NCBI GenBank assembly: GCA_030679035.1
Contig: JAUXTH010000180.1
Coordinates: 1-43,702, forward strand
Origin: Methylobacter sp.
Lineage (GTDB): Bacteria > Pseudomonadota > Gammaproteobacteria > Methylococcales > Methylomonadaceae
DNA length: 43,702 nucleotides
Direction of reading: 5' to 3'
A model generated the notes under the pieces. The model was not told the origin of the DNA, searched no databases, and was given only the letters and a program-made list of their open reading frames with translations. Shown piece after piece: positions 651 to 21,863 of the stretch (the stretch's first letter is position 1; each line of letters opens with the position of its first letter). The position numbers and the translations under genes are program-made.

Positions 651-1085
651 CTACTTTTCGTCTTTAAGCTCATTGTCTTCCGGGCAACCGTAATGTTTGG
701 CCGTGTAAGATAATATCAATATAGAACCGCTGAGTATGGCAATTGCGACTGTGATGCTAAGCAATAAATAAAGATGGAAGCTATCCGCTACTTTCTGTAC
801 ATCAATGACTAAATGGCGTGATAACGCAGTGATCGCGATATAAATCAGAAACTGTACAGGCAGTCGACGCGTTTTAAAATAAGTACCGACCATGGCGCCT
901 AATTCAAGATAAATAAACAGCAAAAGTATCTCTTCCAAACGGGCATGTCCTGATTTCATCATCTCGATATAATCATGAACAGCAGACCAGACTATCGTGG
1001 CGCCAATAACAAATAATGCAAGATAGTGAAAGGTATCGACCAGGATGTCGCCGATTTTATGAATTAGAACGGTTTTACTGTGCAT
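651..1085 (-). CDS. psiE: PsiE-family membrane protein
   Basis: A 144-residue protein with four predicted hydrophobic segments and the conserved central stretch with a membrane-embedded acidic residue (LEEILLLFIYLELGAM region). This matches the PsiE (phosphate-starvation-inducible) family, whose function is unknown. I chose the ATG at 1085 because GGAAAG lies seven bases upstream; a TTG at 1100 is an alternative that would add five residues and overlap that binding site. The protein ends in a charged cytoplasmic-type tail. It follows the cyd operon on the same strand, separated by a hairpin at 1119-1142, so it is probably a separate transcription unit or read-through gene. Family assignment is by pattern; no phosphate-box was identified. 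Confidence 0.75.
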   Translation of the reverse strand: MHSKTVLIHKIGDILVDTFHYLALFVIGATIVWSAVHDYIEMMKSGHARLEEILLLFIYLELGAMVGTYFKTRRLPVQFLIYIAITALSRHLVIDVQKVADSFHLYLLLSITVAIAILSGSILILSYTAKHYGCPEDNELKDEK

Positions 1086-1118
1086 GGATAATCTTTCCAA
1101 TGAGTTAACCTTAAATTG

Positions 1119-1181: not shown

Positions 1182-1751
1182 TTATAAGCCGCTCTTTGCC
1201 GTTGCAACTCTGATCAATTCATCCACTTCACTCGTCGTAGCAGAAAATTCTTCAGGGCGCGCGGAGTACTCGGCAACCCCAACAGCGGCCTCAACAACCA
1301 AGCCGGGCGCTTTAACGCGTTCTGAAATCTCGTTTTTAATCTGCGCCGCGATTTGCTCGGCTTTTTTCAATGGAGAACCCGGCATCGCAATAAGAAAATC
1401 CTGGTCATCCATTCTTGCCGCAATATCGACGCCCGCCCTGATGTCTTCTTTAACGCAATCGGCCACGCCACGTAATATGGCGTCCATTTCATGTTCAGGT
1501 AAATTATTATTCCTGGTTTTAAAACCCTTTAAGCTGATAAAAAGAATGGAAAAAGGAAAGCCGTTGCGTTTGGAGTTCTCGACTTTCTCCGTTAACCGGC
1601 CCAGCATCGTGTCTTTGGTCATTAACTGGGTTAGCGGGTCTAGGGGGATATGTTCTCTATCCCATGTTTCCTGCGCCTCCAGCCGCAGTACGTTGATAAT
1701 GCCTAACGAACAGGCCAACAATAATCCAAGTATCCAGGTGAAATACCACAT
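1182..1751 (-). CDS. cydX: CydX (bd-oxidase small subunit) fused to degenerate GGDEF domain
   Basis: Residues 1-25 (MWYFTWILGLLLACSLGIIN...) reproduce the hallmark of CydX/YbgT, the single-helix accessory subunit that stabilises cytochrome bd. CydX proteins normally end at 30-45 residues; this one continues to 189. Residues 38-189 form a GGDEF fold: a DPLTQL entry motif at 38-43, the usual beta/alpha pattern, and a C-terminal segment starting VEAAVGVAEY. The signature GGDEF is replaced by DDQDF (115-119), and the metal-binding aspartate region reads SLKGFK, so diguanylate cyclase activity is unlikely. The gene follows cydB by nine bases; its ribosome site (TTAGGAG) overlaps the cydB stop codon, implying translational coupling. 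I infer a regulatory or scaffolding domain tethered to the oxidase. A nucleotide-binding role remains possible. Confidence 0.85.
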   Translation of the reverse strand: MWYFTWILGLLLACSLGIINVLRLEAQETWDREHIPLDPLTQLMTKDTMLGRLTEKVENSKRNGFPFSILFISLKGFKTRNNNLPEHEMDAILRGVADCVKEDIRAGVDIAARMDDQDFLIAMPGSPLKKAEQIAAQIKNEISERVKAPGLVVEAAVGVAEYSARPEEFSATTSEVDELIRVATAKSGL

Positions 1752-1760
1752 AGCAATCTC

Positions 1761-2900
1761 CTAATAAGCCGTATGATCGTTGTGTTGAATATGTTCCAGC
1801 GTGATTTTGCCGCGTAACACACGGAACACCCAAGTAGTGTAAGCAACAACGATGGGTAAAAAAATCACCGTCACTACGAACATGATTTTTAAGGTGGTTA
1901 GGCTGGAGCTGGCGTCCCATACCGTCAATGAGCTGTTCAAAGCCGAACTTGACGGGATCAGGAACGGAAACATCGACACGCCCGCGGTTAAAATAACCGA
2001 AGCCAATACCAATGAGCTGGTTATAAATGCCAGACCTGTGCGGTCGATTTTTGACAGCACGATGGTCGCCGCTCCGGCAATAAAAGCCAGCGCCGGAATG
2101 ATCCACAACACCGGACAATGCGCATAGTTATCCAGCCATAATCCCGGTTCTTTGGACACTATTTTGGCTAACGGGTTGGATGGTGCGTTAGGGAGAATTT
2201 CACTGGTGATATGGTAACCGTCGATATTGGCGACCCAGATGCCGGCCAAGGCAAAAATAGCCAGCGTTATGATTGCAGAAACAGTGACCACTGTTTTACA
2301 GCGCCGGTTAATGTCGCCCTCAGTCTTGAGCTGTAAATAGACCGCACCATGCATAACCAGCATCGATAAGCTGAGCAGTCCTGCCGCCAATGCAAATGGG
2401 TTTAATAATGCCCAGAACGAGCCGGTATAAAAAATACGCATATCGTTATCGAAGTGGAACGGTACGCCTTGCAATAAGTTGCCGAATGCGACGCCGAAAA
2501 TCAACGCCGGTACGAATCCGCCGACAAACAACGCAATATCCCAGTTGCTGCGCCATGTTTGGCTGGGCAGTTTGCTGCGGTAATCAAAGCCTATCGGTCT
2601 TAAGAATAACGCAAACAAGGTCAGCAATAAGGCAAAATAAAATCCCGAAAATGCGACGGAATAGGCGATAGGCCAGGCAGCAAACAGCGCGCCGCCTGCG
2701 GTTACGAACCAAACCTGATTGCCTTCCCAGGTTGCGCCTATGGAATTGATAATCACGCGGCGTTCGCTATCGTTTTTGCCTAAAAAGGGTAATAAAACTG
2801 CCACGCCCAGGTCAAAGCCGTCGGTAATGGCAAAGCCGATCAATAAAGCGCCTAATAAAGCCCACCAGATCAGGCGCAGGGTTTCATAATCGAAAATCAT
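1761..2900 (-). CDS. cydB: Cytochrome bd ubiquinol oxidase subunit II
   Basis: A 379-residue, multi-spanning CydB. The N-terminus ([25 protein letters not shown]) and the block containing [26 protein letters not shown] are family signatures; the length equals that of E. coli CydB (379). CydB pairs with CydA in the inner membrane and supports the haem-bearing subunit in quinol oxidation and oxygen reduction. The start codon overlaps the end of cydA by four bases (ATGA), and the stop codon is shared with the ribosome site of the downstream CydX-GGDEF gene, so cydA-cydB-cydX is one operon. Confidence 0.95.
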
Positions 2901-4459
2901 AGTGATGCTCCTGTGGCGATTTCAAAATGGTAGCGGCCTTTGTGCAGGCTGCTGGGACCTAACTTGATGAATTTAAGCATCAAGAACATTTCGATGATCA
3001 AAAATACCGTATATAAGCCGATGTAGCCAGCCAAGCTCAGGTATATATCGAGTTCGGTCAGGGATGATGTGCTCAAGAAGGTCGGTAAAATTTCCGCAAT
3101 AGTCCACGGTTGACGACCGAACTCGGCCACAAACCAACCCAATTCAGAGGCAATCCAGGGCAACGGCATCATATAAAGGCTTGCACGTAACAGCCAGTCC
3201 TGTCTGCATTTACGAATTGAGCTGGCTATCACAGCAAAAATAAATATTCCCAGCATGATAAAGCCGCAAGCTACCATGATCCGGAAGGTCCAGAATAAAG
3301 GCACGACTCTGGGGATTGAGTATTGAGTTGCCAGTTCTATTTGTTGATCGGTCGCATCGACTACGTTTTCGGTATAGCGTTTAAGCAATAGACCATAGCC
3401 CAGATCCTGTTTGTAACGGTCAAACTCGGCACGGACATTGGCATCCTTGTTACCCGATCTTAAGGTTTGCAATAGTGCGTAAGCTTTCATGCCGCTACGA
3501 ATACGCAAGCGATTTTTTTCCAGAATCTCCGATAAACCGGTAATCGGCTCATCGATGGATCGCGTCCCTATCAAGCCCAATACCCAGGGGATTTTGATTG
3601 CGTAATGCGTTTCCATGGTTTCCTGGTTCGGTATGCCGATGGCGGTAAACGCTGCCGGTGCCGGTTCGGTGTGCCATTCGGCTTCAATAGCGGCCAGTTT
3701 GGTTTTTTGTACTTCGCCGGCGGTATAGCCGCTTTCATCACCCAACACAATGACCGACAGTATGGCTGCCAGTCCAAACCCTGCGGCGATGGTATAAGAG
3801 CGTTGCGCAAAGGCCGCATCACGGCCTTTCAGCATGTAATAAGCGCTGATGCCTAACACGAAAACAGACGCGGTGGTGTAACCGGCGGCGACGGTATGGA
3901 CAAATTTAACCTGAGCGGCCGGATTAAATAACAGATCGCCAAAGCTGGTGATCTCCATGCGCATGGTTTCATAATTAAACTCGGCTCCGGCAGGAAATTG
4001 CATCCAACCGTTGGCGACCAGAATCCACAACGCGGATAAGTTGGTGCCCAATGCAACCAGCCAGGTCACTAACAAATGTTGTCCCTTGCCTAGCTTGTCC
4101 CAGCCGAAGAAAAACAGGCCGACGAAGGTGGATTCCAGGAAAAACGCCATCAAGCCCTCAATGGCAAGCGGCGCACCGAAAATATCGCCGACATAATGCG
4201 AGAAATATGACCAGTTCATGCCGAATTGAAATTCCATGGTCAAGCCGGTGGTGACGCCCAGCGCGAAATTGATACCGAATAATTTCCCCCAGAACTGGGT
4301 CATATCCTTGTAAATTTCCTTGCCGGTCATGACATAAGTCGATTCCATAATTGCCAGTAAAAACGACAATCCCAATGTCAACGGAACAAACAAAAAATGG
4401 TATAGAGAGGTTGCCGCAAACTGCCAGCGCGATAAATCAACCACGGCCTCTGAAATCAT
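2897..4459 (-). CDS. cydA: Cytochrome bd ubiquinol oxidase subunit I
   Basis: A 520-residue CydA, close to E. coli CydA (522). His21 in the [15 protein letters not shown] block corresponds to the haem b595 ligand His19 of E. coli. The [12 protein letters not shown] signature ends at about residue 452. The insert between residues roughly 220 and 390, including [15 protein letters not shown] and [13 protein letters not shown], shows the long Q-loop (L) subfamily. The enzyme oxidises quinol and reduces oxygen with high affinity without pumping protons, and in E. coli is resistant to sulfide, which fits the divergent sqr gene. The ribosome site AGGAG lies seven bases before the ATG at 4459. No FNR-type TTGAT-N4-ATCAA site was found upstream. 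Confidence 0.96.
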
Positions 4460-4824: not shown

Positions 4825-6105
4825 ATGGCTCGAATTGTAATTTTAGGTGCAGGCATTGGCGGCGTGCCAATGGCTTACGAAATGAAGGAAACGGTAGGAA
4901 AAAATCATGATGTTATCGTGATTTCCGATAGCCCTACTTTTCATTTTGTTCCGTCAAATCCCTGGGTTCCACCCAAATGGCGAACACCTGAAGAGTTGAA
5001 GATTGAATTAGCCCCAATTTTTAAAAAAAAGGGCATAGAATTTATTCAAAAAGCCGCAGCAAAAGTTGACCCGGTTAATAATCAGGTGCTGCTGGACGAT
5101 GGTTCCGCCGTTGCGTACGACTTCCTGGTTATCGCCACAGGGCCGCGCCTGGCTTTCGATGAAGTTCCCGGTCTAGGGCCGGATGGTTATACCTCCTCGG
5201 TTTGTCATATTGATCATGCCGAAGTTGCTGTAAAAGATTGGGATAAGTTTATGGAAAATCCCGGTCCGATTGTTATCGGCGCGGTTCAGGGAGCCTCCTG
5301 CTACGGACCTGCTTATGAATATTTAATGATTCTTGAAGCGGAATTACGCAAAAAGAAAATTCGCGACAAAGTACCGATGACTTTTGTGACCGCAGAACCG
5401 TATATCGGGCATTTGGGGCTAGGCGGTGTCGGCGATACCAAAGGCCTGCTGGAAAGCGCCTTGCGTGACAAGACCATCAAATGGATAACTAACGCCAAAG
5501 TCGACAAAATCGAACCCGGCATGATGTATGTCACGGAAGTCGATGATGAGGGCAAGGACAAGAAAAAACATGAACTACCCTTTAAACACTCAATGATGTT
5601 ACCTGCCTTTACCGGCGTTGACGCCGTGCGCAATGTCGGCGTTGAAGGCTTGGTTAACCCGCGCGGCTTTGTTTTGGTGGATGAGCATCAGCGTAATCCT
5701 ACCTTTAAAAATATCTATTCCGTCGGCGTCTGCATTGCCATTCCGCCTGTTGAAAAGACACCGTTGCCGGTTGGCGCGCCGAAAACCGGCTATATGATCG
5801 AGTCGATGGTCACCGCCACCGCGCACAATATTGCCGATGAATTGGCCGGCAAAGAGCCGACACACAGAGCGACGTTGAATGCGTTATGTCTGGCCGATTT
5901 TGGCGATTTCGGGGTGGCATTTCTGGCCAAACCGCAAATTCCGCCGCGTAACGTGACCTGGTCGGCCGAAGGCAAATGGGTGCATTGGGCTAAAATCGGT
6001 TTCGAGAAATATTTCATGCGTAAAATCAGAAGAGGCATCAGCGAACCTTTTTATGAAAGGATGATGCTCAAATTAATAGGCGTAGTCCGGTTAAAAGGAA
6101 AGTAA
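4825..6105 (+). CDS. sqr: Sulfide:quinone oxidoreductase, type I
   Basis: This 426-residue flavoprotein oxidises sulfide to polysulfide or sulfane sulfur and passes electrons to quinone at the membrane. The FAD-binding GAGIGG motif is at 8-13. Cys127, Cys159 and Cys355 sit almost exactly where Rhodobacter capsulatus SQR (427 residues) has its three catalytic cysteines (127, 159, 353). KTGYMIES and the C-terminal block with LADFGD and PQIPPRN are type I features, and the basic, amphipathic tail (KYFMRKIRR) is the membrane anchor. The start is set by GAGGAG eight bases before the ATG. It is divergent from cydA and one base upstream of the DUF2892 gene. The family assignment is firm; the physiological role (detoxification rather than lithotrophy) is inferred. 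Confidence 0.93.
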
Positions 6106-6452: not shown

Positions 6453-6489
6453 TAATGGGTATTGTTAAACCTGACACAGGTACGTGAAG

Positions 6490-7866
6490 ATGATGCTTAA
6501 AACAATAAAAAACAAACTGGCATTAAGTCTATTATCGTTACTCATGTTATCGAACTGGTTGGCAGTAGCTGATCAAGCCGCGCCGGAAAAAGCAACCGCC
6601 CAATCCTTTTCACTGGATCAGGCCATTGATTACGCATTATCCAATAACCCTGATCTGCAAATCGCCGCAGAACGCATCGGTCAGGCTGAAGCTCAGCTAG
6701 GTGTGGCGCTGTCTGCGTTTTATCCGCAAGTAACCGCAAAAGTTGGCTATGACCATTCCAACAATCCGGCGCAGGTCTTTTCGATGATCGTGGCGCAACG
6801 GGATTTCAATTCCAACTCTATCAATAACATTAACAATCCCGGTTACCGGCAAAACTTCCGTCCCGAAATCATAGGTAAGCTGTCCCTGTTCCGTGGCGGC
6901 CAGGATTATCACAACAGTAAAGCGGCGGAGCTGGGCATAGACGCGGCTGAATTTGAACGCTCAACCGTGCGCAATGCCTTGATTGAAGCTGTCACCGCTT
7001 CATATTATGCCTATTTGGCCGCTCACGAGGCGCATAAAGTCGCCCAGGATTCCATTGCCGCAATTTCCAGCGAGCTAAAGCAATCGAAACTGCGGTACGA
7101 AGCCGGAACCGTACTCAAATCCGATGTTTTATCGCTGGAAGTGAAACTGGCTGAGGCGCAGGAAGCCGAAATCAGGGCCGCCAACGGCATCGAACTATCC
7201 AAAACGAGTATCGCCACCTTGCTCGGTCTGGCAACGGATCATGCGTTTACGGTTTCGTCAGCATCTTCGAAGTTACCCGAACCCAAGATGACGGTATCGT
7301 TTAACGATTTACTCGAACTGGCGATGACGCAACGCCCGGAGGTTAAAGCGGCCGCCACCAAGGTAGAAATAGCGCAAGCCAAGTTAAAAAGCGAGCAGGG
7401 CGCTTATTTGCCAAAAGCCGATGCTTATGTGAGTTACGGTCAAAACAGCCAATCTCCCGGATTTTCCAGCAGCAAAGACAATGTCACCGCCGGAGTCAGC
7501 GTCGAAATGGATTTGTTTTCCGGTTTGGAGACCAAAAACCGCGTCAGCGCGGCGGAACGAAAAGCCGCCGAAGCTCGCGAAACGGAACGGAAAGCCAAGC
7601 TGGCTATCGAACAGGAAGTCAAAATTGCTTCCCTGAAGTTGGAGGAAGCTCTGGCTCGTATGCGCGTCACCGAAGCATCGGTGGCTGCCGCCGACGAAGC
7701 GTTAAGGCTGGTTAATGAACAACGGCGCGCGGAAACAGTGACGGTTACCCGTTATATCGAGGCTGAAGTAGCCAGAAATAAAGCCCATTCCAACACGATT
7801 GCAGCGCATTACGATGCCCTGAGTGCCGAAGCCGCATTGAAAAAAGCGGTCGGCGACTGGAAGTAG
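6490..7866 (+). CDS. TolC-family outer-membrane efflux protein
   Basis: About 458 residues. A signal peptide (hydrophobic LALSLLSLLMLSNWLAVADQA) is followed by two outer-membrane-efflux repeats. Each begins with the typical helix pattern: ALSNNPDLQIAAERIGQAEAQLG early on, and LAMTQRPEVKAAATKVEIAQAKL in the second half. Long alanine/glutamate-rich helices form the periplasmic tunnel. The start is uncertain: GTG at 6484, ATG at 6490 and ATG at 6493 are in frame; ACAGG at 6476-6480 is best spaced for 6490. It is the outer-membrane channel for the adaptor and RND pump that follow, separated from them by a REP-like cluster. Confidence 0.88.
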   Translation: MMLKTIKNKLALSLLSLLMLSNWLAVADQAAPEKATAQSFSLDQAIDYALSNNPDLQIAAERIGQAEAQLGVALSAFYPQVTAKVGYDHSNNPAQVFSMIVAQRDFNSNSINNINNPGYRQNFRPEIIGKLSLFRGGQDYHNSKAAELGIDAAEFERSTVRNALIEAVTASYYAYLAAHEAHKVAQDSIAAISSELKQSKLRYEAGTVLKSDVLSLEVKLAEAQEAEIRAANGIELSKTSIATLLGLATDHAFTVSSASSKLPEPKMTVSFNDLLELAMTQRPEVKAAATKVEIAQAKLKSEQGAYLPKADAYVSYGQNSQSPGFSSSKDNVTAGVSVEMDLFSGLETKNRVSAAERKAAEARETERKAKLAIEQEVKIASLKLEEALARMRVTEASVAAADEALRLVNEQRRAETVTVTRYIEAEVARNKAHSNTIAAHYDALSAEAALKKAVGDWK

Positions 7867-7884
7867 ATAATAAATAACTAATAG

Positions 7885-7981
7885 TTCCCACGCTCAGGCG
7901 TGGGAATTCAGTCTGCAACGTTCCAGCGTTGCGGGACGCTGGAGCGTCTACCACTGCGTTCCCACGCCGGAGCGTGGGAAC
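7885..7981. repeat. Cluster of four REP-like hairpins
   Basis: TTCCCACGC/GCGTGGGAA (7885-7906), GCAACG/CGTTGC (7915-7932), GACGCT/AGCGTC (about 7935-7948) and GTTCCCACGC/GCGTGGGAAC (7958-7981) are consecutive stems; the first and last are near-identical. GATAATTTTT follows the last stem. It lies between tolC-like and adaptor genes and may stabilise or attenuate the transcript. Confidence 0.7.
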
Positions 7982-8035
7982 GATAATTTTTCGTGTCTTT
8001 CGTGGACAAATGTTTTTTAAGACAAAGGAAACCTT

Positions 8036-9121
8036 ATGTCTCAAATCGAACCCAAAAACGTCAACAAAATCGTCGCTATTTCCGTTGCCGTTTTAGCCTT
8101 GATTTTGTTGCTACTTTATATGCAAGGCAGTTTTGTCAGCAAAGTGTCGCCCGGATCAAGCCCATTGCCCGGCGATGCAAACGCGCAGCAAAGCAACACG
8201 GCTGTTGTCGAAAAAAAGCAGGTTGAGGACATTCTCAGCTGGCCCGGCACGGTAAAGTCGAGAACTGTAGCCAATATCGCTCCTAGAATGACGGCTAGGA
8301 TTATCGAGATTAAGGTCAATGCGGGCGACAAAGTCAAAAAGGGCGACGTTATCGCCCGCCTGGATGAGCGCGACATTAAGGCTCAAGAAAATGCAGCCTT
8401 GGCCGCGCTTGCCGGAGCCAATGCCCAAGCCAATCGCGCCCAAGCTGACGAACAGCGCACCCGTAGCTTGTACAGCAAGGAGGCGGCGACCCGCGAAAAT
8501 TTTGATGCCGTAGTTGCCAGCGCAAAAGAGGCAAAAGCGGGCGCAAATCAGGCCGCAAGCGCTGTAACGGAAGTCCGGTCCCATCTGGCCGATACGCTGC
8601 TGCTTGCTCCTTTTGACGGCGTTGTTGTCAAACGTCTTCAAGAACCCGGCGACATGGGGCTGCCCGGCGTTCCCGTGGCGACTTTGCAGACACCGCAAGG
8701 ATTAAGGCTAGAGGTCGATGTGCCGAGCACCTGCGCCGGGCGTTACAGCATCGGCATGGATGTTACGGTGCGCATCGATACCTTGGGTCTAACCACCCGC
8801 GCGCAAATTGACGAGATCAGTCCCGAAGTCGACCCGCAAACCCGCACCCAACTGATCAAAACCGCACTGCCTGCTATCGAAGGCCTGCAACCGGGATATT
8901 TCGGCTGGCTGGAACAAGCCTGCGGTCAGCATGAAGCCTTGTTAATCCCTGTCACCGCTGTGCAACATATCGGCCAGCTGGAAGTGGTCAAGGTCGTATC
9001 GGAAGGCCGGCAGCTGATGCGTCATATCAGGACCGGTAAAACCTTCGGCGAGCAAATTGAAGTCATTTCCGGCTTACATGCCGGTGAAACCGTCATAACC
9101 CATCCTCAGCAGGCGCAATAA
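8036..9121 (+). CDS. RND efflux periplasmic adaptor (membrane fusion protein)
   Basis: 361 residues. One N-terminal membrane helix (about 12-31) anchors a periplasmic body. The lipoyl half-motif IIEIKVNAGDKVKKGDVIARLDE, an alanine-rich coiled-coil hairpin (about 118-185) and the second lipoyl half with LLAPFDGVVVKRLQEPGDM follow in the order expected of HlyD/AcrA-type adaptors, then a beta-barrel and membrane-proximal domain with HIGQLEVVKV. It bridges the RND pump and TolC-like channel. AAGGAAAC precedes the ATG. The stop TAA is directly followed by the ATG of the pump gene, so the two are translationally coupled. Substrate cannot be told from the sequence. Confidence 0.9.
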   Translation: MSQIEPKNVNKIVAISVAVLALILLLLYMQGSFVSKVSPGSSPLPGDANAQQSNTAVVEKKQVEDILSWPGTVKSRTVANIAPRMTARIIEIKVNAGDKVKKGDVIARLDERDIKAQENAALAALAGANAQANRAQADEQRTRSLYSKEAATRENFDAVVASAKEAKAGANQAASAVTEVRSHLADTLLLAPFDGVVVKRLQEPGDMGLPGVPVATLQTPQGLRLEVDVPSTCAGRYSIGMDVTVRIDTLGLTTRAQIDEISPEVDPQTRTQLIKTALPAIEGLQPGYFGWLEQACGQHEALLIPVTAVQHIGQLEVVKVVSEGRQLMRHIRTGKTFGEQIEVISGLHAGETVITHPQQAQ

Positions 9122-12100
9122 ATGGATAGCCTGCAAAATGAAAGCCCCAAGCGTGGCTTGACGACCAAGATTGTCGAGATTTTTACTACATCGCAGCTTT
9201 CGATACTGTTCCTGATTATTTCCCTGTTGGCCGGAGCTGCGGCGTTAATCTTGACGCCCCGCGAAGAAGACCCTCAGATTGTCGTGCCGGTTATGGATGT
9301 GTTGGTTGAATATCCGGGCGCTTCAAGCGAGGAAGTTGAAAAACTGGTTGCCACGCCGCTGGAGGTTTTGCTCAAACAGCTTGAAGGCGTGGAGTATGTG
9401 TATTCCATTTCCAGACCCGGCGCGGCGGTTGTTACTGTGCGTTATTTCGTCGGCCAATCGTTTGAAGACAGCCTGGTCAAGACCTGGGACAGGCTGATGT
9501 CCAACCAGAACCTTATTCCTCCTGGCGTCGCCCACTGGAAAGTGTCGCCGGTCGAAATCGATAACGTGCCTATCGTTTTGATGACGCTTTCCGCACAGAA
9601 CGATAATTACGATTCGATGGCCTTGCGCCGTATCGCCGATGAGCTGATTACTTCCTTGAGAAGTGTCGGCGATGTCGGCAAAAGCTGGGTTGTCGGCGGC
9701 GAGCAGCGGCGGGTATCGATTTATGCCAACCCTGCCGCATTGGCCGCGCACGGCGTAACCTTACTTGAAATCACCCAGGCGCTGGCTGATGCCAACGTGA
9801 ACCTGCAAGTCGGCAGCATCGAACGCGGCAACCGTGAAATCCTGCTCGAAGCCGGGCCGCATTTTGAGTCGTCGAACGAAGTGGGAGCGACCGTCATTAA
9901 GAGCGTTGCGGGACGGCCTGTTTACCTGCGCGATGTGGCGCGAATTGAAGACGGCCCGGCCGATGTCGATCATTACACCCGCATCGGCTTTGGCCCTGCG
10001 GTCGATGAGATGCCGACGATAGGCCATGCCACCGGCAACAAGCCGCAAGTCGGGCAGGAACGGCAGATGGTCACCATTGCTGTCGCCAAACGCAAGGGCA
10101 GCAATGCAGTCAACGTCGCCGAAGCCGTTATTGCCACGGCGGAAAAGCTGCACGGCACGCTGATTCCCGAGGATGTTTTAATGAGCATCAGCCGCGATTA
10201 CGGGGAAACAGCCAACCACAAAGTCAACGAGCTGGTTAAGCATTTGAGTTTTGCCATCGTGATTATCGTGGTGTTGCTGGCCTTTTCGCTGGGGCTGAAA
10301 GAATCGTTTATCGTATCGATCGCCGTGCCGATGACCTTGGCGTTGACCCTGTTGCTGGACTATATATCCGGTTACACGATCAACCGCGTCACCTTGTTTG
10401 CGTTGATCCTGTCGCTGGGCCTGCTGGTGGATGACCCGATCGTCGATGTCGAAAATATCCATAGGCACTATAAATTGCGCAAAGAATCGCCGCTACAAGC
10501 GCTGTTGACGGCGGTCGATGAAGTCAGGCCGCCGACTATCCTGGCGACTTTCACGGTGATCGTGTCATTCCTGCCGATGTTTTTCATCACCGGCATGATG
10601 GGGCCGTACATGGCGCCGATGGCGTTTAACGTGCCGATAGCGATGATTGTTTCGTTGATCGTCGCATTCACCGTGACGCCATGGGCGAGTTTCAAGCTGC
10701 TGCAAAGCGAATACCACAGCCATAGCGACGAAGTGCCGTTGGAGCTCAAACAGACGTTTATCTACCGGACTTACCGCTCCGCACTCGGGCCTTTGCTTGA
10801 GACTTCAAAACGCGCAAAGTTGTTCCTGCTGATCGTGCTGATAGCCTTCGTGGCCTCGACCCTGCTGGCCGTGACCCGCGCCGTGCCGCTCAAGTTATTG
10901 CCGTTCGACAATAAAAACGAGCTGCAAATCATGATCGATATGCCGCGCGGCTCGACTCTGGAGCAGACCGATGAAGTCGCGCGCGCCCTTGGCAGCTATC
11001 TTGCCACCGTCAACGAAGTCACCGATTATCAAACCTATACGGGGCTCGCCGCGCCGATGGACTTTAACGGCATGGTTCGTCACTATTATTTACGCAGCGG
11101 CGGCTATGTGGGCGAAGTCAGGATCAATTTACTGCCTAAAGACCGGCGTGAACAGCAATCGCACGAAATCGCCTTGCGCATGCGGCCTGAAATAGAGCAG
11201 ATCGGCAAGAAATACGGCGCAAATCTTAAAATCACGGAAATCCCGCCGGGCCCGCCGGTGCTTTCCGATCTGGTCGCCGAAGTTTACGGCCCGCCGGAAG
11301 CTAGTATTGACAGCCTGGTCGCCGTATCCAAGCGCGTCAGGGCCGATATGGAAAAAACCGAAGGCGTGGTCGATGTCGATGACTTTTCCGAAGCGCAACA
11401 TGACAAGGTCCATTTCCACCTGAATAGGGAGAAAGCCGCGTTGTCCGGCATCAGCGTCGAGCAAGTTGCCCAAACCCTTCGCATCGCCGCAGCAGGCCAG
11501 ACGGTCGGCATTGTGCATGTAGACAGCGAACGCCAGCCGCTGGAAATCACCCTGCAACTGCCCCGCGCGCTACGCTCGTCCGTTGCCGATTTATTGGCTT
11601 TGCACGTTAAAACCGGGCAGGGCGATCTGATACCGTTAAGTGAAATAGGCAGCGCCGACATAGAAAGCGAAGACCAGCCTATTTTCCATAAGAATCTGCA
11701 ACGAGTGAGTTATGTGATTGCCGGAATGGCGGGTCGCAGTCCGGTGGAAGCGGTTTTCGACCTGAATGACGTGATGGATGAACGCCCCTTGCCGGAAGGC
11801 TATACCGCCGAACTCGCAGGGGAAGGCGAATGGAAAATCACCGTTGATGTATTTCGTGATCTTGGCTTAGCCTTTGCTGCCGCGCTGGTGATGATCTATG
11901 TTTTGCTGGTCGGCCAAACCGGGTCGCTGAGCGTGCCGCTGGTGATGATGATAGCCATCCCGCTGACCGTCATCGGCATCATGCCGGGCTTCTGGCTGCT
12001 TAACTTGTTTACCACGCCTATCGCAGGTTATCCCAATCCGATTTATTTCACCGCCACCGCGATGATCGGCATGATTGCGTTGGCGGGTATCGTAGTGCGC

Positions 12101-12367
12101 AATTCGATTATCCTGATCGATTTTATCGAGCGCATTCGCGCCCGTGCCGATGTGACGCTTGCGGAAGCCTTGATTGAGGCTGGTGCGATACGCTTGCGGC
12201 CGATATTTTTGACTGCTGGAGCGGCCATGTTCGGTGCGTTTGTGATCATCCTGGACCCGATATTTTCAGGGCTGGCATGGAGCTTTATTTTCGGTATTTT
12301 TGCCTCGACCCTGTTTTCGCTGCTGGTGATTCCGGTGGTTTATTTTTTGATTAACAAGGACGAGTAA
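9122..12367 (+). CDS. RND efflux pump, inner-membrane permease
   Basis: 1081 residues, the normal size for a proton-driven RND permease. The first helix (about 27-45) is followed by a large periplasmic loop with the porter-domain start PQIVVPVMDVLVEYPGASSEEVE. TM4 carries the proton-relay pair in LLVDDPIVDVENIHRHYK (Asp437, Asp438). The second half repeats the layout: MIGMIALAGIVVRNSIILIDFIE and the C-terminal RLRPIFLTAGA block. It belongs to the AcrB/hydrophobe-amphiphile or related branch, not clearly the heavy-metal CzcA branch. The position after sqr suggests export of a sulfur-linked or toxic compound, but this is inference. Confidence 0.92.
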   Translation: MDSLQNESPKRGLTTKIVEIFTTSQLSILFLIISLLAGAAALILTPREEDPQIVVPVMDVLVEYPGASSEEVEKLVATPLEVLLKQLEGVEYVYSISRPGAAVVTVRYFVGQSFEDSLVKTWDRLMSNQNLIPPGVAHWKVSPVEIDNVPIVLMTLSAQNDNYDSMALRRIADELITSLRSVGDVGKSWVVGGEQRRVSIYANPAALAAHGVTLLEITQALADANVNLQVGSIERGNREILLEAGPHFESSNEVGATVIKSVAGRPVYLRDVARIEDGPADVDHYTRIGFGPAVDEMPTIGHATGNKPQVGQERQMVTIAVAKRKGSNAVNVAEAVIATAEKLHGTLIPEDVLMSISRDYGETANHKVNELVKHLSFAIVIIVVLLAFSLGLKESFIVSIAVPMTLALTLLLDYISGYTINRVTLFALILSLGLLVDDPIVDVENIHRHYKLRKESPLQALLTAVDEVRPPTILATFTVIVSFLPMFFITGMMGPYMAPMAFNVPIAMIVSLIVAFTVTPWASFKLLQSEYHSHSDEVPLELKQTFIYRTYRSALGPLLETSKRAKLFLLIVLIAFVASTLLAVTRAVPLKLLPFDNKNELQIMIDMPRGSTLEQTDEVARALGSYLATVNEVTDYQTYTGLAAPMDFNGMVRHYYLRSGGYVGEVRINLLPKDRREQQSHEIALRMRPEIEQIGKKYGANLKITEIPPGPPVLSDLVAEVYGPPEASIDSLVAVSKRVRADMEKTEGVVDVDDFSEAQHDKVHFHLNREKAALSGISVEQVAQTLRIAAAGQTVGIVHVDSERQPLEITLQLPRALRSSVADLLALHVKTGQGDLIPLSEIGSADIESEDQPIFHKNLQRVSYVIAGMAGRSPVEAVFDLNDVMDERPLPEGYTAELAGEGEWKITVDVFRDLGLAFAAALVMIYVLLVGQTGSLSVPLVMMIAIPLTVIGIMPGFWLLNLFTTPIAGYPNPIYFTATAMIGMIALAGIVVRNSIILIDFIERIRARADVTLAEALIEAGAIRLRPIFLTAGAAMFGAFVIILDPIFSGLAWSFIFGIFASTLFSLLVIPVVYFLINKDE

Positions 12368-15230: not shown

Positions 15231-16424
15231 ATGGAATTTATCAAGGCGGGTTCATTGCCTGTAAGCTCATTCGTACCTGCAAGCATTGACCAGTACTACC
15301 CAAAGAATGAAAGCTCGACATGGAATTTAAATTCTTTAAGTGATGTCATGGCTTTTGAGTCTAACAATAAAACTTTTTGGAAGAAAACCGTGCTTGGGTT
15401 ATTGCATCATCGACGGTCATTTTCTGAGAGCGGGGCGTCCAGAGCAGTCATTGTCGGATTTAGCGATTTAAGCCGCAAACTGACTTATCAGTTTAAGAAA
15501 AACCCGGTGCTGCGAGTGGACTGTGTGGGTTTTTTTGATGATCGTGGACCGGGGCGCTTTTCAGGAAAAAAGGAACGCCGATCCGAAGCACTGCTGGGCG
15601 ATATTACATCGGTGACTGAATTTGTTAAAACTCATAACGTTCAGCACATTTACATCGCTTTACCGATGTCTGCACAGCCGCGGATTCAGGCATTATTGGA
15701 TAACTTACGGCGCGATACCACTGCATCGATTTACTTTGTACCGGATATACTTTCGTTTGATTTAATTCAGGCCAACATCAGTATCATCAACGGCATTCCC
15801 GTCGTGGCAGTTTGCGAAAGTCCGTTTGTTGGTATCAACAGCAGGATTAAACGGATCAGTGATGTGGTGTTATCGCTTTCGATTTTGTCGTTGATCGCGC
15901 CATTGATGCTGTTGATCGGCATTGGCATAAAGTTTAGCTCATCAGGCCCGATGTTATTCAAACAGCGTCGTTACGGGGTCGATGGCAAGGAAATTGTGAT
16001 TTATAAGTTTCGTAGCATGACCGTGATGGAAGACGGCGAGAAGGTTGACCAGGCAACTCGAAATGATCCGAGAATTACCCGGTTTGGGGCGTTCTTACGA
16101 AAAACATCTCTGGATGAGTTGCCGCAATTTATCAATGTGCTGCAAGGTCACATGAGCATTGTTGGCCCGAGACCACATGCTATCAGCCATAACGAAATAT
16201 ACCGCAATATAATCAAAGACTATATGGTGCGGCATAAGGTAAAGCCCGGCATTACGGGGTGGGCGCAGGTTAACGGCTTTCGGGGTGAAACTGAAACTGA
16301 AGAAAAAATGCAGCGCCGGATCGATTACGATCTGGATTATCTGCGCAACTGGTCGTTGTTTCTCGACTTATTGATTATTTTTAAAACCATTGGCGTGGTG
16401 ATTAAGGATCAAAATGCGTACTAA
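15231..16424 (+). CDS. Polyprenyl-phosphate sugar-1-phosphate transferase (initiating enzyme), N-terminally short
   Basis: 397 residues. Residues about 70-200 form the nucleotide-binding-like domain (AVIVGFSDLSRKL... GDITSVTEFV...HIYIALP). Residues 205-397 are the bacterial-sugar-transferase domain: a membrane-dipping helix (about 210-233), FKQRRYGVDGK, YKFRSM, the catalytic region KTSLDELPQF with its Asp-Glu pair (295-296), and VGPRPH. It transfers a sugar-1-phosphate from a UDP-sugar to undecaprenyl phosphate, starting repeat-unit assembly. WcaJ-type relatives are about 465 residues and start with four membrane helices; these are absent here. The strong TAGGAG seven bases before the ATG supports this start. 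epsE overlaps its end by 11 bases. Confidence 0.88.
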   Translation: MEFIKAGSLPVSSFVPASIDQYYPKNESSTWNLNSLSDVMAFESNNKTFWKKTVLGLLHHRRSFSESGASRAVIVGFSDLSRKLTYQFKKNPVLRVDCVGFFDDRGPGRFSGKKERRSEALLGDITSVTEFVKTHNVQHIYIALPMSAQPRIQALLDNLRRDTTASIYFVPDILSFDLIQANISIINGIPVVAVCESPFVGINSRIKRISDVVLSLSILSLIAPLMLLIGIGIKFSSSGPMLFKQRRYGVDGKEIVIYKFRSMTVMEDGEKVDQATRNDPRITRFGAFLRKTSLDELPQFINVLQGHMSIVGPRPHAISHNEIYRNIIKDYMVRHKVKPGITGWAQVNGFRGETETEEKMQRRIDYDLDYLRNWSLFLDLLIIFKTIGVVIKDQNAY

Positions 16425-17226
16425 TAAAAGATTTAAATGGCTTGATAAACACTATTTCTTGTTGTTGGCTTTACTGCTGCTGTTGCCTATTCAGCAAGGT
16501 ATCGCTGCTTATAACATTGGTCCGGATGATGTCTTGCGCATCTCTGTGTTCGGTCATGACGATTTAAAAGCTGAAACCCGCGTTTCAGCCGATGGTCGGA
16601 TTAGCTTTCCGTTAATCGGTGACGTCACGGCAAGCGGGAAATCCAGTATGGAGTTGGAAGAAGCTATTGCCGTGCGTCTAATCAGCGGCGGCTTTATTCA
16701 GGAGGCTCAGGTCAGTGTCACGGTGGTGGATCGTGTCAGTCAACAGGTCTCTGTGTTGGGCTATGTTAATAAACCGGGGCGTTATCCCCTGGATTCCGAT
16801 AGTTCAATAGTCGATTTGATTGCCATGGCCGAAGGCATTGATGAGTTGGGTGGCACTAAGGCAGTGGTTACCCGTATTGTGGACGGCAAGCCGCAAAAGC
16901 AGGAGCTGAATTTGAGAGCTTATCTGGAAAACGGCCAAAATATCGCACCCTTTAAGATGCGCCAAGGTGATGTGGTGTATGTGCCCAAGGCATCCCTATT
17001 TTATATTTATGGTGAAGTTCAGCATCCTGGCGGTTATCCCCTTGAACCGGATATTTCGGTGGTAAAGGCCTTGCCGATCGGTGGTGGGCTGACATTGCGC
17101 GGTACTGAAAACGGCATAGTTGTTAAACGCAAGAACGGAAGCGGCGAACTACAGGAAGTTGATGTGGAGTTGGGTGATGCCGTGTTAAAAGATGATGTGA
17201 TTTATGTTGGTGAGCGTTGGTTTTAG
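16414..17226 (+). CDS. epsE: Polysaccharide export outer-membrane protein EpsE
   Basis: 270 residues. A signal sequence (LLLALLLLLPIQQGIAA) is followed by the polysaccharide-export domain beginning YNIGPDDVLRISVFGHDDL and two SLBB-type beta-grasp repeats (VLGYVNKPGRYPLD and IYGEVQHPGGYPLE). No lipobox cysteine is seen, as in many EpsE proteins and unlike Wza. It forms the periplasmic/outer-membrane export channel with EpsF. The start lies inside the preceding gene (11-base overlap). Confidence 0.92.
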   Translation: MRTNKRFKWLDKHYFLLLALLLLLPIQQGIAAYNIGPDDVLRISVFGHDDLKAETRVSADGRISFPLIGDVTASGKSSMELEEAIAVRLISGGFIQEAQVSVTVVDRVSQQVSVLGYVNKPGRYPLDSDSSIVDLIAMAEGIDELGGTKAVVTRIVDGKPQKQELNLRAYLENGQNIAPFKMRQGDVVYVPKASLFYIYGEVQHPGGYPLEPDISVVKALPIGGGLTLRGTENGIVVKRKNGSGELQEVDVELGDAVLKDDVIYVGERWF

Positions 17227-17304
17227 CCTATTGCAAATCAGGATGCGTTTTCGTGCCATCCTTATCGGATTACTTAGATTGAATCAATAAAATAAAGGAA
17301 CACC

Positions 17305-18735
17305 ATGAATTTTCAACAATTTATTAACATTCTTTGGTCACGCAAATCGGTTGTCCTGTGGGCATTGATGATGACGGCAATCACGACCTTGGTGGTGAGT
17401 CTGTTGTTGTCCAAACAATACCTAGCCACGACTTCAATAGTGGTTGATCAACGCAGTGTCGACCGGGTGACGGGCCTGGCTTTGCCGGTACAGCTGTTGC
17501 CAGGGTATATAGCGACACAGGTTGACGTGATTTCCAGTCATAAGGTGGCGCGTAAAGTGGTGGACAAACTAAAACTCCACGAGATGCCAAAAATGCAGGA
17601 AGACTTTGCAAAATCCGACGGCATTGGCGACATCAGGGACTGGGTTGCGGATTTGTTGCTGAAAAAACTGGAAATCAGGCCTTCACGCGAGAGCAGTGTG
17701 ATGCAGGTTGATTTTACTTTTAACGATCCACAACTTGCCGCGCTTATCGCCAACACCTTTGCCGATGTCTACATTCAAACCAGTACCGAATTGCAGGTTC
17801 AACCGGCCAAGATGAGTGCAGACTGGTTCGATTCGCAAATGGCTACCTTGCGAGAGCGTTTGGAACATGCGCAGTCGGTGTCGTCTACTTATCAACAAGA
17901 ACATGGTATCGTCGCGATTGATGATCGACTTGACCTGGAAAATTCCCGTCTGGCTGAACTATCAAAGCAGTTGGTGGAAGGTCAGGCGCGCACCAGCGAA
18001 TTGCAATCAAGAAAAGATTTGCTGACGAGCACCGTCAAGCAAGGCAGCTCACTTGAGTCGCTACAAGAAGTGTTGAGCAATCCGCTGATTCAATCGCTGA
18101 AGACGGAATTGGCACGAGCAGAAGCTGGTTTTGCCGAATTGTCCAAACGAGTTGATATAAATCATCCGCAATACAAGCAAGCAAAAGCGGAAGTGAACAA
18201 CCTGCAACAGAAAATGCACTCCGAAGTCAATATGGTGTTAAGCAGTATCGCCAGTGGAGCTGCTGCTTCCATACAACGTGACAAGATAGTGGCTAATGCC
18301 TTGGCTGAGCAAAAAGCCAAGGTGCTGGAGTTGAAAAAACAGCATGATGAAATAATGGTGTTTAATCGTGAGGTGGAAAATGCACAGCGGGTCTATGATG
18401 CCGCCATGCAGCGTGCGGTGCAAAGCCGCATGGAAAGCGAAATAAGCCAGACCAATATCGCTGTCCTCAATTACGCCATTCCTCCGCAAAAACCAGCCAA
18501 GCCCAAAGTGTTGTTAAACATGATTCTGTCGTTTTTTCTGGGCGGAATGTTAGGGGTGGGGGCGGCGTTATTGGCAGAATTGATGGATCGTCGAGTGCGC
18601 TCTGCTTTTGATATTTCGGAGGTATTGGATGTTCCTGTTTTTGCTATCGTTTCCGCATCCAAGCAAAAGCAAATACCTTGGCAGTTTAGTCTTGAAAATC
18701 TCCGTGATAAATATAATGAGCGAGGTACCGCATAA
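17305..18735 (+). CDS. epsF: Chain-length determinant protein EpsF (Wzz/GumC family)
   Basis: 476 residues. The N-terminal Wzz helix (about 15-37) is followed by a long periplasmic coiled coil (about 160-370, rich in Glu/Gln/Lys heptads) and a second helix (about 399-422) preceded by the proline-rich PPQKPAKPK motif typical of polysaccharide copolymerases. It sets chain length and links polymerase, kinase and export pore. AAAGGAACACC precedes the ATG. A small hairpin (17240-17262) lies in the gap after epsE. The stop codon is directly followed by the epsG ATG. Confidence 0.93.
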   Translation: MNFQQFINILWSRKSVVLWALMMTAITTLVVSLLLSKQYLATTSIVVDQRSVDRVTGLALPVQLLPGYIATQVDVISSHKVARKVVDKLKLHEMPKMQEDFAKSDGIGDIRDWVADLLLKKLEIRPSRESSVMQVDFTFNDPQLAALIANTFADVYIQTSTELQVQPAKMSADWFDSQMATLRERLEHAQSVSSTYQQEHGIVAIDDRLDLENSRLAELSKQLVEGQARTSELQSRKDLLTSTVKQGSSLESLQEVLSNPLIQSLKTELARAEAGFAELSKRVDINHPQYKQAKAEVNNLQQKMHSEVNMVLSSIASGAAASIQRDKIVANALAEQKAKVLELKKQHDEIMVFNREVENAQRVYDAAMQRAVQSRMESEISQTNIAVLNYAIPPQKPAKPKVLLNMILSFFLGGMLGVGAALLAELMDRRVRSAFDISEVLDVPVFAIVSASKQKQIPWQFSLENLRDKYNERGTA

Positions 18736-19632
18736 ATGCAAACGGCGAAAATTATTTTTAATAACAAAATGATCAACGAAATAACCAAAACAGAAAACAC
18801 TGCTTCCATAGGGACTTCCATGGGGGCTTTATTACTGGATGCGGGGAAAATCAATGCTAATGATGCCGAGCGCATTATCATCTTGCAAAAACAGAAAGGC
18901 ATGCAATTTGGCGATGCAGCGAAGGCGCTGGGGCTGATCAACGATGGCGACATACAAAAAGCCTTGTCGCATCAATTTGATTTTCCATTCCTGACGGCAA
19001 GCGAAGAGCATTTTAGTCGGGAATTGGTTGCAGCGTATCAGCCCTTTAGTGCGCAAGTGGAAGCGCTTCGAGCTGTACGCGGACAATTGATGCTGCGCTG
19101 GTTTATCGATGTCCATAAAACCTTGGCGGTGGTCAGCCCCAGTCGAGGAGAAGGGCGCAGTTATATGGCTGCTAATCTGGCGATTGTTTTTTCCCAGCTT
19201 GGTGAACGCACCCTGTTAATCGATGCTGATCTACGACATTCGCGGCAGCAAGCGTTATTCAAGTTACAAGGCGGCTATGGCTTGTCGGATGTATTGGCAG
19301 GACGCTCCGATCTAACGGCTGTTACACGAATTCCGGCCTTCCGGGATTTATCGATCTTGCCGGCGGGCACAGTGCCGCCTAATCCGGTCGAGTTGCTCAG
19401 TCGAGGTTTAAAAAACTGTCTGCAACAGTTGCAAACCCAATTTGACGTAATTCTGATCGATGCTCCGTCAGCAGAGGAGGGCATAGATGCGCAAATTATC
19501 GCCTCAAATTGTGGCGGTGCCCTGTTAGTGGCGCGGCAAGACAAAACTCGGTTGAATGATTTACAGCATTTAAAAGAAGCTTTGCAAGACACGGGCAGTC
19601 AATGCCTCGGCGTTGTATTAACGGATTTTTAA
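18736..19632 (+). CDS. epsG: EpsG, BY-kinase-like ATPase of the chain-length system
   Basis: 298 residues. Residues about 28-86 resemble the N-terminal domain of type II secretion ATPases (GALLLDAGKI...MQFGDAAKALGLI...HQFDFPFL). The P-loop region reads VVSPSRGEGRSYMAANLA (132-148): the usual GKS/T lysine is arginine, as I recall for the EpsG subgroup. Walker A' is LLIDADLR (160-167), and the second motif DVILIDAPS is present. There is no C-terminal tyrosine cluster. It should act with EpsF to control polymer length. It starts immediately after epsF; an ATG at 18772 is an alternative. Confidence 0.88.
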   Translation: MQTAKIIFNNKMINEITKTENTASIGTSMGALLLDAGKINANDAERIIILQKQKGMQFGDAAKALGLINDGDIQKALSHQFDFPFLTASEEHFSRELVAAYQPFSAQVEALRAVRGQLMLRWFIDVHKTLAVVSPSRGEGRSYMAANLAIVFSQLGERTLLIDADLRHSRQQALFKLQGGYGLSDVLAGRSDLTAVTRIPAFRDLSILPAGTVPPNPVELLSRGLKNCLQQLQTQFDVILIDAPSAEEGIDAQIIASNCGGALLVARQDKTRLNDLQHLKEALQDTGSQCLGVVLTDF

Positions 19633-19739
19633 ATATTAAAAATTAAAACTAAATTGCTTAATTACAGAAAACAAACTATATTAACATTTCATAATAACGT
19701 TATGTTTTTATTAAAGTTAATAGATTAAAGTCATTGCTT

Positions 19740-20978
19740 ATGAAATTTAGCAAAAATAATGCGACGAAAAACCGGTACTTATTGTCGTGTTTCCTGTTCC
19801 TTATAGGGGGGCTGCCAAGTAAAAGCTATGCCGTAGCATCGCCAGACGATACTATCAAGCCTTACGTTGCCTCCAGCTTGCTATACGACAGCAACTTTTT
19901 GCGATTATCTGACAGCGTCGATTCTGTTGCGGTTACCGGTAAAAGCGATAAAAGCGAATTTCTTAAACAAGTCGCAGCCGGGTTGGATATGGACTGGACA
20001 ATCAGCAGGCAGCATATTATCGTTAAAGCTAATGTTAACCAGAACTGGTTTCAAAACTTCAGCACTTTGGATTACACTGGCTGGGACACACAGGCCCAAT
20101 GGAACTGGCATGTCAGGAACGATCTGGATGGCGAAATCGGGTACACCAACACTCAAGTATTGGGTAGTTTTGTTCAGTTGAATAGTCTGGTAGGCAACTT
20201 GCAAAATAACCAACGTTCTTTTGCCAACGCCGGTTACCTGTTTCATCCTAACGGTAAAGTCAAGCTTGGCGTGTTTAGAGTAGAGAGACAGTTTGATGAA
20301 AATAGTCGGCAATTCAGCAACAACATTGAAGACAATGCCGAATTCAACTTGCAATACCTAAGCCCTACTGGCAGCATTTTTGGAGTGCGGGTGCTTGCAA
20401 CTGATGGTCAATATCCAAAACGCCAATTAACCGCTAACAGCACCCAGGATAACGCGTACACGCGAATGAATTATGCGGCGACTTGGGATTGGCAGGCCAG
20501 CAGTAAAACGCGTATTGATGGGCATGTCGGCTACACACAGCAAGACTATGCGAATTTCAGCGCCAGCAATTTTTCCGACATAATCGCACGTCTTAATCTA
20601 AAGTGGCAAGCCAGCGACAAAACATCGCTAGAGCTGTCCACAAGACGTGAAATCGCCCAAGCCGACAACCGGTTTGCCAGTTTTGTCCTAACCCAGGGGG
20701 TATGGTTTAGCCTCGCTTGGCAGTCCTCCCCCAAAATTGGCCTGACTTTGCCCATGTCCTACCAACAGCAACAATATTTGGGCGGCACTGGCAGCAATAC
20801 TGTTGGTTCTGAACAACAAAAAGACAATGTCGGCAGCATTGGCCTTAATGTGATGTACCACCCATTGGACAGCATCAGCATCGGCCCAGTGCTGAATTAC
20901 GAAAAGCGTGATTCCAATAACCCTGTTGCATCCTACGAAACCAAATCGGCTGGGGTTAATTTACAGGCGGCTTTTTGA
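19740..20978 (+). CDS. epsL: Exopolysaccharide operon barrel protein EpsL
   Basis: 412 residues. A signal peptide (LLSCFLFLIGGLPSKSYA) is followed by many amphipathic beta strands ending in the aromatic-terminal YETKSAGVNLQAAF, as expected for an outer-membrane beta barrel of the EpsL family found in methanolan-type operons. It probably helps export or modify the polymer at the outer membrane. ATG at 19740 is preferred; a TTG at 19734 is in frame. A 107-base AT-rich gap with a weak hairpin plus T-run (19690-19710) separates it from epsG, so it may be separately regulated. A degenerate second copy of its 3' end lies at 21690-21804. Confidence 0.85.
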   Translation: MKFSKNNATKNRYLLSCFLFLIGGLPSKSYAVASPDDTIKPYVASSLLYDSNFLRLSDSVDSVAVTGKSDKSEFLKQVAAGLDMDWTISRQHIIVKANVNQNWFQNFSTLDYTGWDTQAQWNWHVRNDLDGEIGYTNTQVLGSFVQLNSLVGNLQNNQRSFANAGYLFHPNGKVKLGVFRVERQFDENSRQFSNNIEDNAEFNLQYLSPTGSIFGVRVLATDGQYPKRQLTANSTQDNAYTRMNYAATWDWQASSKTRIDGHVGYTQQDYANFSASNFSDIIARLNLKWQASDKTSLELSTRREIAQADNRFASFVLTQGVWFSLAWQSSPKIGLTLPMSYQQQQYLGGTGSNTVGSEQQKDNVGSIGLNVMYHPLDSISIGPVLNYEKRDSNNPVASYETKSAGVNLQAAF

Positions 20979-20986
20979 ATAACGCT

Positions 20987-21017
20987 GCCTCGGAGCGCAT
21001 AAACACGCTCTGTAGGC
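20987..21017 (+). terminator. Hairpin downstream of epsL
   Basis: GCCT (20987-20990) with AGGC (21014-21017) and GAGCG (20993-20997) with CGCTC (21006-21010) form a two-part stem just after the epsL stop. An AT-rich tract follows but not a clean T-run, so it is a possible terminator only. Confidence 0.45.
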
Positions 21018-21062
21018 CGTTAATAAAAATATTATCAAAACAGAAAATCTTAAGGAAGAGAT

Positions 21063-21143
21063 ATGATCCGTAAAATACGTTTCAGCACCGTGTATTTCAA
21101 GGTTGGGAAGCCTAGAAAGTACAGAATTACTCCCTCTCACTAA
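21063..21143 (+). CDS. 26-codon open frame with strong ribosome site
   Basis: An ATG at 21063 is preceded by AAGGAAGAG (21052-21060). The peptide is basic (MIRKIRFSTVYFKVGKPRKY...) and ends at TAA 21141. It is either a small peptide or the surviving start of a truncated gene in this decayed region. I do not recognise it. Confidence 0.3.
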   Translation: MIRKIRFSTVYFKVGKPRKYRITPSH

Positions 21144-21302
21144 AAAGCAATCAAGTCTTGGTGCTGTAAGCCCGGCTAAATCACTAGATTTGATCGTTTT
21201 TTAATAATTAGACGTTTTCTCGCTTAGGTGAGACTAAAAGACGTAAATCATTTCTTCTTGCCAACTTATTCCTGCCTCCCCTTGATGAATAGGCTTATCA
21301 GG

Positions 21303-21584
21303 GCTTGATCCTGTCTTTGTGAGACAGAGGTCGAGGAGTCTCCTGAAGCAATAGTGCATGTATTTTACGAAGCATTTTTTGCGTAGTGAAAATGCAGGCA
21401 ATTTCCAAAATTGCGTCGAGTCATTGAGTATTCAGTTTTATGGCCTCTGTTGGCTATAAAATTAGGGAAGCGGGACTATTGGGGGCACCGTTGTCAGTAG
21501 TCTGTCGCATGATTTTTGCCGCTTGGGGCAGGGATGCTAAAAACAAGCTTTTACAAAAATATCGTCTCCCAAGAAATCACTTAG
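21303..21584. repeat. Degenerate long direct repeat, copy 1
   Basis: About 280 bases resemble 34141-34431 in the same orientation. Shared blocks include GAGACAGA-GTCGAG, ATAGTGC-TGT-TTTT-ACGAAGC, GAAAATGCAGGC, CGTCGAGTCATTG and CAAAAATA-CG-CTCCC, in the same order with similar spacing; by eye about two-thirds of bases match. No frame is conserved between copies, so it is probably non-coding. It lies between epsL and the epsL remnant. Confidence 0.7.
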
Positions 21585-21689
21585 AAAGAACCCAGTGATG
21601 CAAGGCATTTAGCTTAATAGCGAGGTCGCCTGATAGGTAATCGCACTTATTGATTGAAGAAATTAAATTCTCTATTCTAAAGCCACTTG

Positions 21690-21804
21690 ATATTACCTAT
21701 TACAGACAGTATCAGTCCTGATGAACTATGAAAAACGCGATTCTAACGACGGTTAAAGTCTTACGAAACTCAATCGGCTGGCGTTAATTTACAGGCGGCT
21801 TTTT
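21690..21804 (+). pseudogene. Remnant of a second epsL 3' end
   Basis: This stretch aligns with the last 125 or so bases of the intact epsL (ends at 20978). Shared parts are CAGACAGTATCAG/CAGCATCAGCAT, GAA-TA-GAAAA-CG-GATTC and the nearly identical end CAATCGGCTGG-GTTAATTTACAGGCGGCTTTTTGA. Small deletions break the frame. It is a decayed duplicate or the trace of recombination with another epsL-like gene. Confidence 0.75.
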
Positions 21805-21863
21805 GAATGAGTGATGGAAGTGAGCGGCATCATGTTCAAAACAAAAGAAGGGAAGAAGTGGAT

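Follow-up and report, generated by a model that had tools for sequence, protein, structure and literature searches.

This locus of Methylobacter sp. raises the question of what a GGDEF domain would do on CydX, the small subunit of cytochrome bd, to which mainly a structural role is ascribed (PMC8951039). Papers are cited here by PMC number, each for excerpts of its text. The window, meaning the whole stretch of 43,702 nucleotides that was analysed, carries the following features at and around the gene in question.

651..1100, minus strand: PsiE-like membrane protein gene, downstream of the fusion gene on the same strand (PF06146, 2.8e-19)
1182..1751, minus strand: cydX-GGDEF fusion gene, 189 codons plus stop (reading frame, Pfam, NCBIfam, full-length relatives)
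1203..1643, minus strand: degenerate GGDEF domain, residues 37-183 (PF00990)
1395..1409, minus strand: DDQDF, residues 115-119, at the place of GG(D/E)EF (alignment)
1425..1439, minus strand: R105-A-G-V-D109, aligned with the RxxD inhibitory site but one residue longer (R105 and D109 do not vary)
1533..1535, minus strand: S73, aligned with the first metal-binding Asp (57/57 fused sequences have Ser or Asn here)
1644..1670, minus strand: linker, residues 28-36 (AlphaFold2 model)
1671..1751, minus strand: CydX part, residues 1-27, membrane helix (PF08173, 9.7e-15, whole profile)
1758..1762, minus strand: AGGAG, likely ribosome binding site of the fusion gene (sequence)
1761..2900, minus strand: cydB (PF02322, 1.7e-102; TIGR00203)
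2897..4459, minus strand: cydA, long-Q-loop form, 520 amino acids (PF01654, 2.2e-168; alignment with 6rko_A)

The fusion gene is one uninterrupted frame for 189 amino acids, opened by an ATG at 1751 and closed by a stop codon whose last base is at 1182. A sequence-only reading of the window had given the span 1182..1751, which stands once it is specified that the gene lies on the minus strand and that the coordinates include the stop codon. Residues 1-27 match the CydX profiles of Pfam (PF08173; 54.8 bits against a cut-off of 26.2, E = 9.7e-15) and of NCBIfam (TIGR02106; 50.6 bits against an equivalog cut-off of 31.6), and the CydX signature previously read at the N-terminus is thereby confirmed. 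CydX has been reported only for a subset of long-Q-loop oxidases (PMC13189123), and a long-Q-loop cydAB lies directly 5' of the fusion gene, with 9 nt between the end of cydB (1761) and the ATG; the place after cydB had also been named correctly. CydA of the window can be aligned with 6rko_A through the Q-loop, and D239, Y243 and R298 are conserved in it at the aligned positions. The fusion is the sole CydX match in the source genome. A second cydA, at the end of contig C49, encodes 447 residues as against 520 in the window, and we take it for that of a short-Q-loop oxidase.

Other genes of the window were surveyed in passing. A gene read by eye as sulfide:quinone-oxidoreductase-like (4825-6105, plus strand) is divergent from cydA, and relatives of it, some weakly similar, occur near cydAB in 45 loci. 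An RND-type efflux set (OEP, HlyD, ACR_tran; 6484-12367, plus strand) and polysaccharide-type genes (Bac_transf, Wzz, Polysacc_synt; ~15231-23868, plus strand) look ordinary.

The remainder of the protein is accounted for by PF00990, which matches residues 37-183 with 64.2 bits (cut-off 23.8) and an E-value of 1.6e-17. Both profile searches proposed earlier for the 189 residues are therefore significant, and the claim of some 150 extra residues with a GGDEF fold is upheld by the profile, by an AlphaFold2 model and by structural alignment. In the model, the helix is unbroken from residue 2 to residue 34, passing through the linker, and the whole model aligns with stalk-GGDEF structures over residues 1-189. 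A relative, L101, predicted without an alignment, gave a weak model (pLDDT 61) in which the order of helices and strands is nearly that of the window model. The protein is CydX by profile and place, and GGDEF by fold. The degenerate GGDEF domain on CydX would hence be tethered to cytochrome bd. The architecture is solid; in favour of the CydX with a pseudo-cyclase that had been proposed stand the matches to curated profiles, the order of the genes, its conservation in dozens of genomes, the selection on it and the structure model.

The likeness to CydX and AppX of E. coli (bd-I and bd-II; 6rko chain X) lies in the profile match, in the type of the first 27 residues and in the place after cydB, whereas E. 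coli CydX has 37 residues and the fusion adds about 150 with a GGDEF fold. A survey of CydX describes variable C-terminal regions of up to 44 residues (PMC4325964), and the words "fusion" and "fused" are absent from its main text. The stalk-GGDEF cyclases DosC, WspR, PleD, DgcB and SiaD share the fold, and several of them the layout of stalk plus domain; unlike them, the fusion has neither GG(D/E)EF nor the first metal Asp nor an RxxD of exact spacing, and its stalk is an oxidase subunit. An ammonium transporter with GGDEF (8qj3, 8qj4, 8qpf) is a further metabolic membrane protein whose C-terminal residues 468-602 match the same profile; this likeness is one of profile match alone, and the protein is a transporter, unlike the respiratory enzyme considered here. 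The earlier remark that no described example was known agrees with our literature search, in which titles and the beginnings of abstracts, with few subscription papers covered, pointed to no protein of this kind.

In order to compare motifs, 57 distinct fused domains (L080, cut by a contig end, was left out) were aligned with 29 other GGDEF domains of the source genome. These controls represent 29 of 30 GGDEF loci, and 12 of the 42 domains of the genome, the fused one among them, are without a locus. The positions at GG(D/E)EF and at the first metal Asp are those to which we assign the catalytic roles of diguanylate cyclases. The first metal Asp is kept in 0/57 fused domains, all of which have Ser or Asn instead, as against 29/29 controls, in agreement with the loss of the metal-binding region that had been claimed. 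The second Gly of GG(D/E)EF is likewise found in 0/57 and 29/29, and the motif itself in 0/57 and 27/29; the controls were chosen by a GGDEF-like pattern, and their GGDEF count is partly given by construction, unlike their RxxD count. The letters DDQDF had been read correctly at the active site, but they vary among fused relatives and do not form a fixed motif; what is common is the loss of GG(D/E)EF. The entropy of nine positions of the former active site averages 1.82 bits, while the median of the domain is 1.39; this is not extreme, in that 8% of random sets drawn from the 151 positions 36-186 are as variable, and the tested positions were picked after the alignment had been seen. From these alignments, the fused domain is very probably devoid of cyclase activity.

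Absent from the sequence-only reading is the point that the inhibitory site retains its Arg and Asp although the active site is lost. R105 and D109 are invariant in 57/57 fused domains, and 0.4% of random position pairs are as conserved (positions 36-186; the pair was chosen after the alignment had been seen). The spacing is RxxxD in 57/57 fused domains and RxxD in 29/29 controls, and only L167 among the fused has an RxxD register as well. In profile alignments, R105 and D109 are paired with the RxxD of 5m3c, DosC, 6et7 and SiaD across a one-residue insertion; GcbC, the fifth structure, is aligned in this region without a gap. PelD and PopA belong to the degenerate GGDEF domains whose inhibitory site binds c-di-GMP. 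The fusion resembles them in that its active site is dead and the Arg and Asp of its inhibitory site remain, and differs in that it has RxxxD in place of the RxxD of such a receptor, in that its partner is a terminal oxidase, and in that binding is only putative. The altered spacing speaks against c-di-GMP, as does the near-invariance of R and D in ordinary GGDEF domains too, because of which R105 and D109 may be structural. We class the fusion neither among the diguanylate cyclases nor among the proven c-di-GMP receptors.

How such a domain might act on the oxidase is suggested by E. coli. The C-terminal part of E. coli CydX faces the cytoplasm in the cryo-EM structure (PMC6853902), and because of this the fused domain would lie on the cytoplasmic side. 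Earlier papers placed this C-terminus in the periplasm (PMC4325964, PMC5322542); the older topology was set aside for the cryo-EM statement, and we count it as evidence against the explanation preferred below. The dimer of E. coli bd-I rests on CydX-CydX contacts made by Met1-Trp2 and a leucine zipper, it is more active than the monomer, and Trp2 rotates on dimerisation and anchors part of the Q-loop (PMC13189123). Since these contacts form the dimer, the fused domain would hang beneath its two-fold axis, a place from which a dimerising module could govern the oligomeric state. The dimer residues of AppX are 1, 4, 5, 8, 11, 12, 15, 16 and 19 (PMC8585947). Distinct fused N-termini have M1, W2, L8, L11 and L12 in 37/37 and L16 in 34/37. 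At position 11, 33/37 short CydX of the order carry G or S, the 37 including the broken fused copy L170, and short CydX from other groups have F16 in 25/27.

We hypothesize that the fused domain is a sensor or a dimerisation module rather than an enzyme. Its ligand, of which we are less sure, may be c-di-GMP, held at the altered inhibitory site by R105 and D109; the bound ligand would join or lock two pseudo-GGDEF domains, and the locked domains would push the oxidase toward its more active dimer, or away from it. That the domain is a cytoplasmic regulatory module of the oxidase is probable by analogy with E. coli. Control of the oxidase by the domain, which the sequence-only reading had suggested, is inferred on reasonable and well-founded grounds, and that reading is supported in part. 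The whole chain, from a cytoplasmic pseudo-GGDEF domain on CydX that senses c-di-GMP to control of the oxidase via the dimer, is possible with a likelihood somewhat short of even. That the domain is a c-di-GMP sensor acting through the dimer is put forward slightly more tentatively, and that c-di-GMP, or another nucleotide, on the pseudo-GGDEF domain would set the monomer-dimer balance of bd, and hence turnover, is open to a little more doubt again.

The domain might also work with no ligand, for dimerisation, assembly or docking, and hold bd dimers together or recruit a cytosolic partner. The variable former active-site positions and the changed RxxD spacing would fit this, as would a dimer-forming CydX (PMC13189123) and the invariant residues that the family has outside the known sites (P66, F67, S68, G125 and A131). 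The invariance of R105 and D109 in all 57 domains is hard to explain on these terms unless the two residues are structural, and we regard a ligand-free module as rather unlikely.

A signal running in the reverse direction is less likely by a wide step: the oxidase would be the sensor, and its redox or quinol state would pass through the helix to the pseudo-GGDEF domain, which would then act on some partner, such as a cyclase or a phosphodiesterase. The GGDEF domain of cyclases receives its signals through a helical stalk, and the alignment of our model with stalk-GGDEF structures over its full length is in keeping with such a route. The movement of Trp2 in E. coli CydX upon dimerisation (PMC13189123) can be counted on the same side. 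Against this direction, no conserved partner gene was found; relatives of the PsiE-like neighbour occur in 38 loci (phmmer, redundant set), after fused and short CydX alike.

Slightly more improbable is a sensor of guanine nucleotides (GTP or ppGpp) that uses the old active-site pocket. N82 (36/57) and D90 (46/57), which align with two residues that contact guanine, are kept in part. Structures of PleD with ppGpp and pppGpp exist (9g85, 9g86), whereas in the fused family the first metal Asp is lost in 57/57 and the residues of the loop are variable.

The fused domain is kept by purifying selection. Its median dN/dS was 0.158 (range 0.02-0.39) in 112 fused-gene pairs, these being the pairs with a usable synonymous distance out of 114 at 80-98.5% protein identity, and residues 1-27 had no amino-acid change in 10 of 11 pairs with the window. 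A tolerated passenger, that is, a functionless C-terminal extension in decay, is disfavoured by these values, by the invariant residues of the domain and by a single frame kept down to ~40% identity, and we consider it very improbable even though broken copies occur and E. coli CydX tolerates altered or tagged C-termini (PMC4325964, PMC6005532), a C-terminal tag leaving it unimpaired (PMC6005532). Broken copies were found in two genomes. In G088 (L102 / L170), the fused frame stops after 75 residues and the remaining domain matches twice nearby; in G092 (L178:1133-1678), the CydX part is missing, and a fragment of cydB leads directly to the pseudo-GGDEF domain, of which the middle and end are left. 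The domain can therefore be lost, which weighs against our preferred explanation, as does the fact that many related genomes have a short CydX or none.

A sequencing or assembly artefact that joins two genes, or a frameshift as once allowed for, is rejected as next to impossible, with the same gene in one open frame in independent genomes, those of the isolates Methylobacter tundripaludum SV96 (L078) and OWC-G53F (L063) included; in the family, 48 of 151 genomes have it (source included, 40-100% identity). A fusion was counted when a match to the 189-residue query extended from residue 1 to at least residue 164. CydX was matched in 102/151 family genomes, exactly once in each of the 48 with a fusion; in the others, CydX is either short (32-51 residues in the ones read) or without a match. 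The fusion-bearing records are named Methylobacter, Methylomonas, uncultured Methylococcaceae or Methylococcales, with two otherwise named, and the fusion also occurs in at least one genome (G308) from a different family of the order. Among the best 80 of 476 confirmed relatives, full-length fusions carry Methylococcales names except L097, titled Gammaproteobacteria, and L094, titled Epsilonproteobacteria. L094 is a 3 kb contig whose fusion is close to those of Methylococcales, and we suspect a binning error. The single-contig genome G226 has two fusion copies (L168, L169), each beside its own cydA match. Beyond the order, a fusion profile was run against samples of 369 class and 398 phylum genomes (E <= 1e-17, at most 8 candidates scored per genome), and no fusion besides that of the window was among the matches listed; the others listed began after residue 1, along ordinary GGDEF domains. 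Long CydX frames (~150-189 codons) in the genus g12 were rejected as further fusions, since in the seven read the frame is only open for some way upstream of an ordinary CydX that has 46-51 residues.

Phylogenetic trees of CydB were built without rows that had a CydB under 360 residues, no CydX or an identical CydB; for a careful tree, we also removed the broken L102 and L170 and six rows on long branches, and then thinned the remainder by about half. In the quick tree (138 rows), the fused rows and one short-CydX row, L133, form a single supported group, and in the careful tree (68 rows) L133 lies inside the fused rows with L167, L040 and L101 (97/88). On the careful tree the fused label has to change twice, and of 200 bootstrap trees only 2% make do with one change; constraining the fused rows to one clade is not rejected (p-AU 0.085). 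In the trees, L133 falls within or next to the fused rows, and the fusion is therefore old within one bd lineage, with either one origin and a loss or two origins. L133 is a Thiotrichaceae MAG; its short CydX (L133:5608-5721) has a tail that resembles those of the fused proteins (LEAQ), and no GGDEF gene was seen by eye downstream of it among the ORFs listed.

Regulation by dimerisation is a hypothesis of PMC13189123, in the excerpts of which no regulator is named; with the conserved fusion of a signalling domain to CydX itself, nature provides an experiment on it. The bd oxidase of methanotrophs has been discussed as a means to cope with changing oxygen (PMC6222125). If the c-di-GMP reading is true, these bacteria would have a direct post-translational link from a c-di-GMP-type module to a terminal oxidase, which would carry a built-in second-messenger receptor and couple a lifestyle signal directly to respiration. 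The fusion suggests that in many methane-eating bacteria respiration is directly wired to intracellular signalling.
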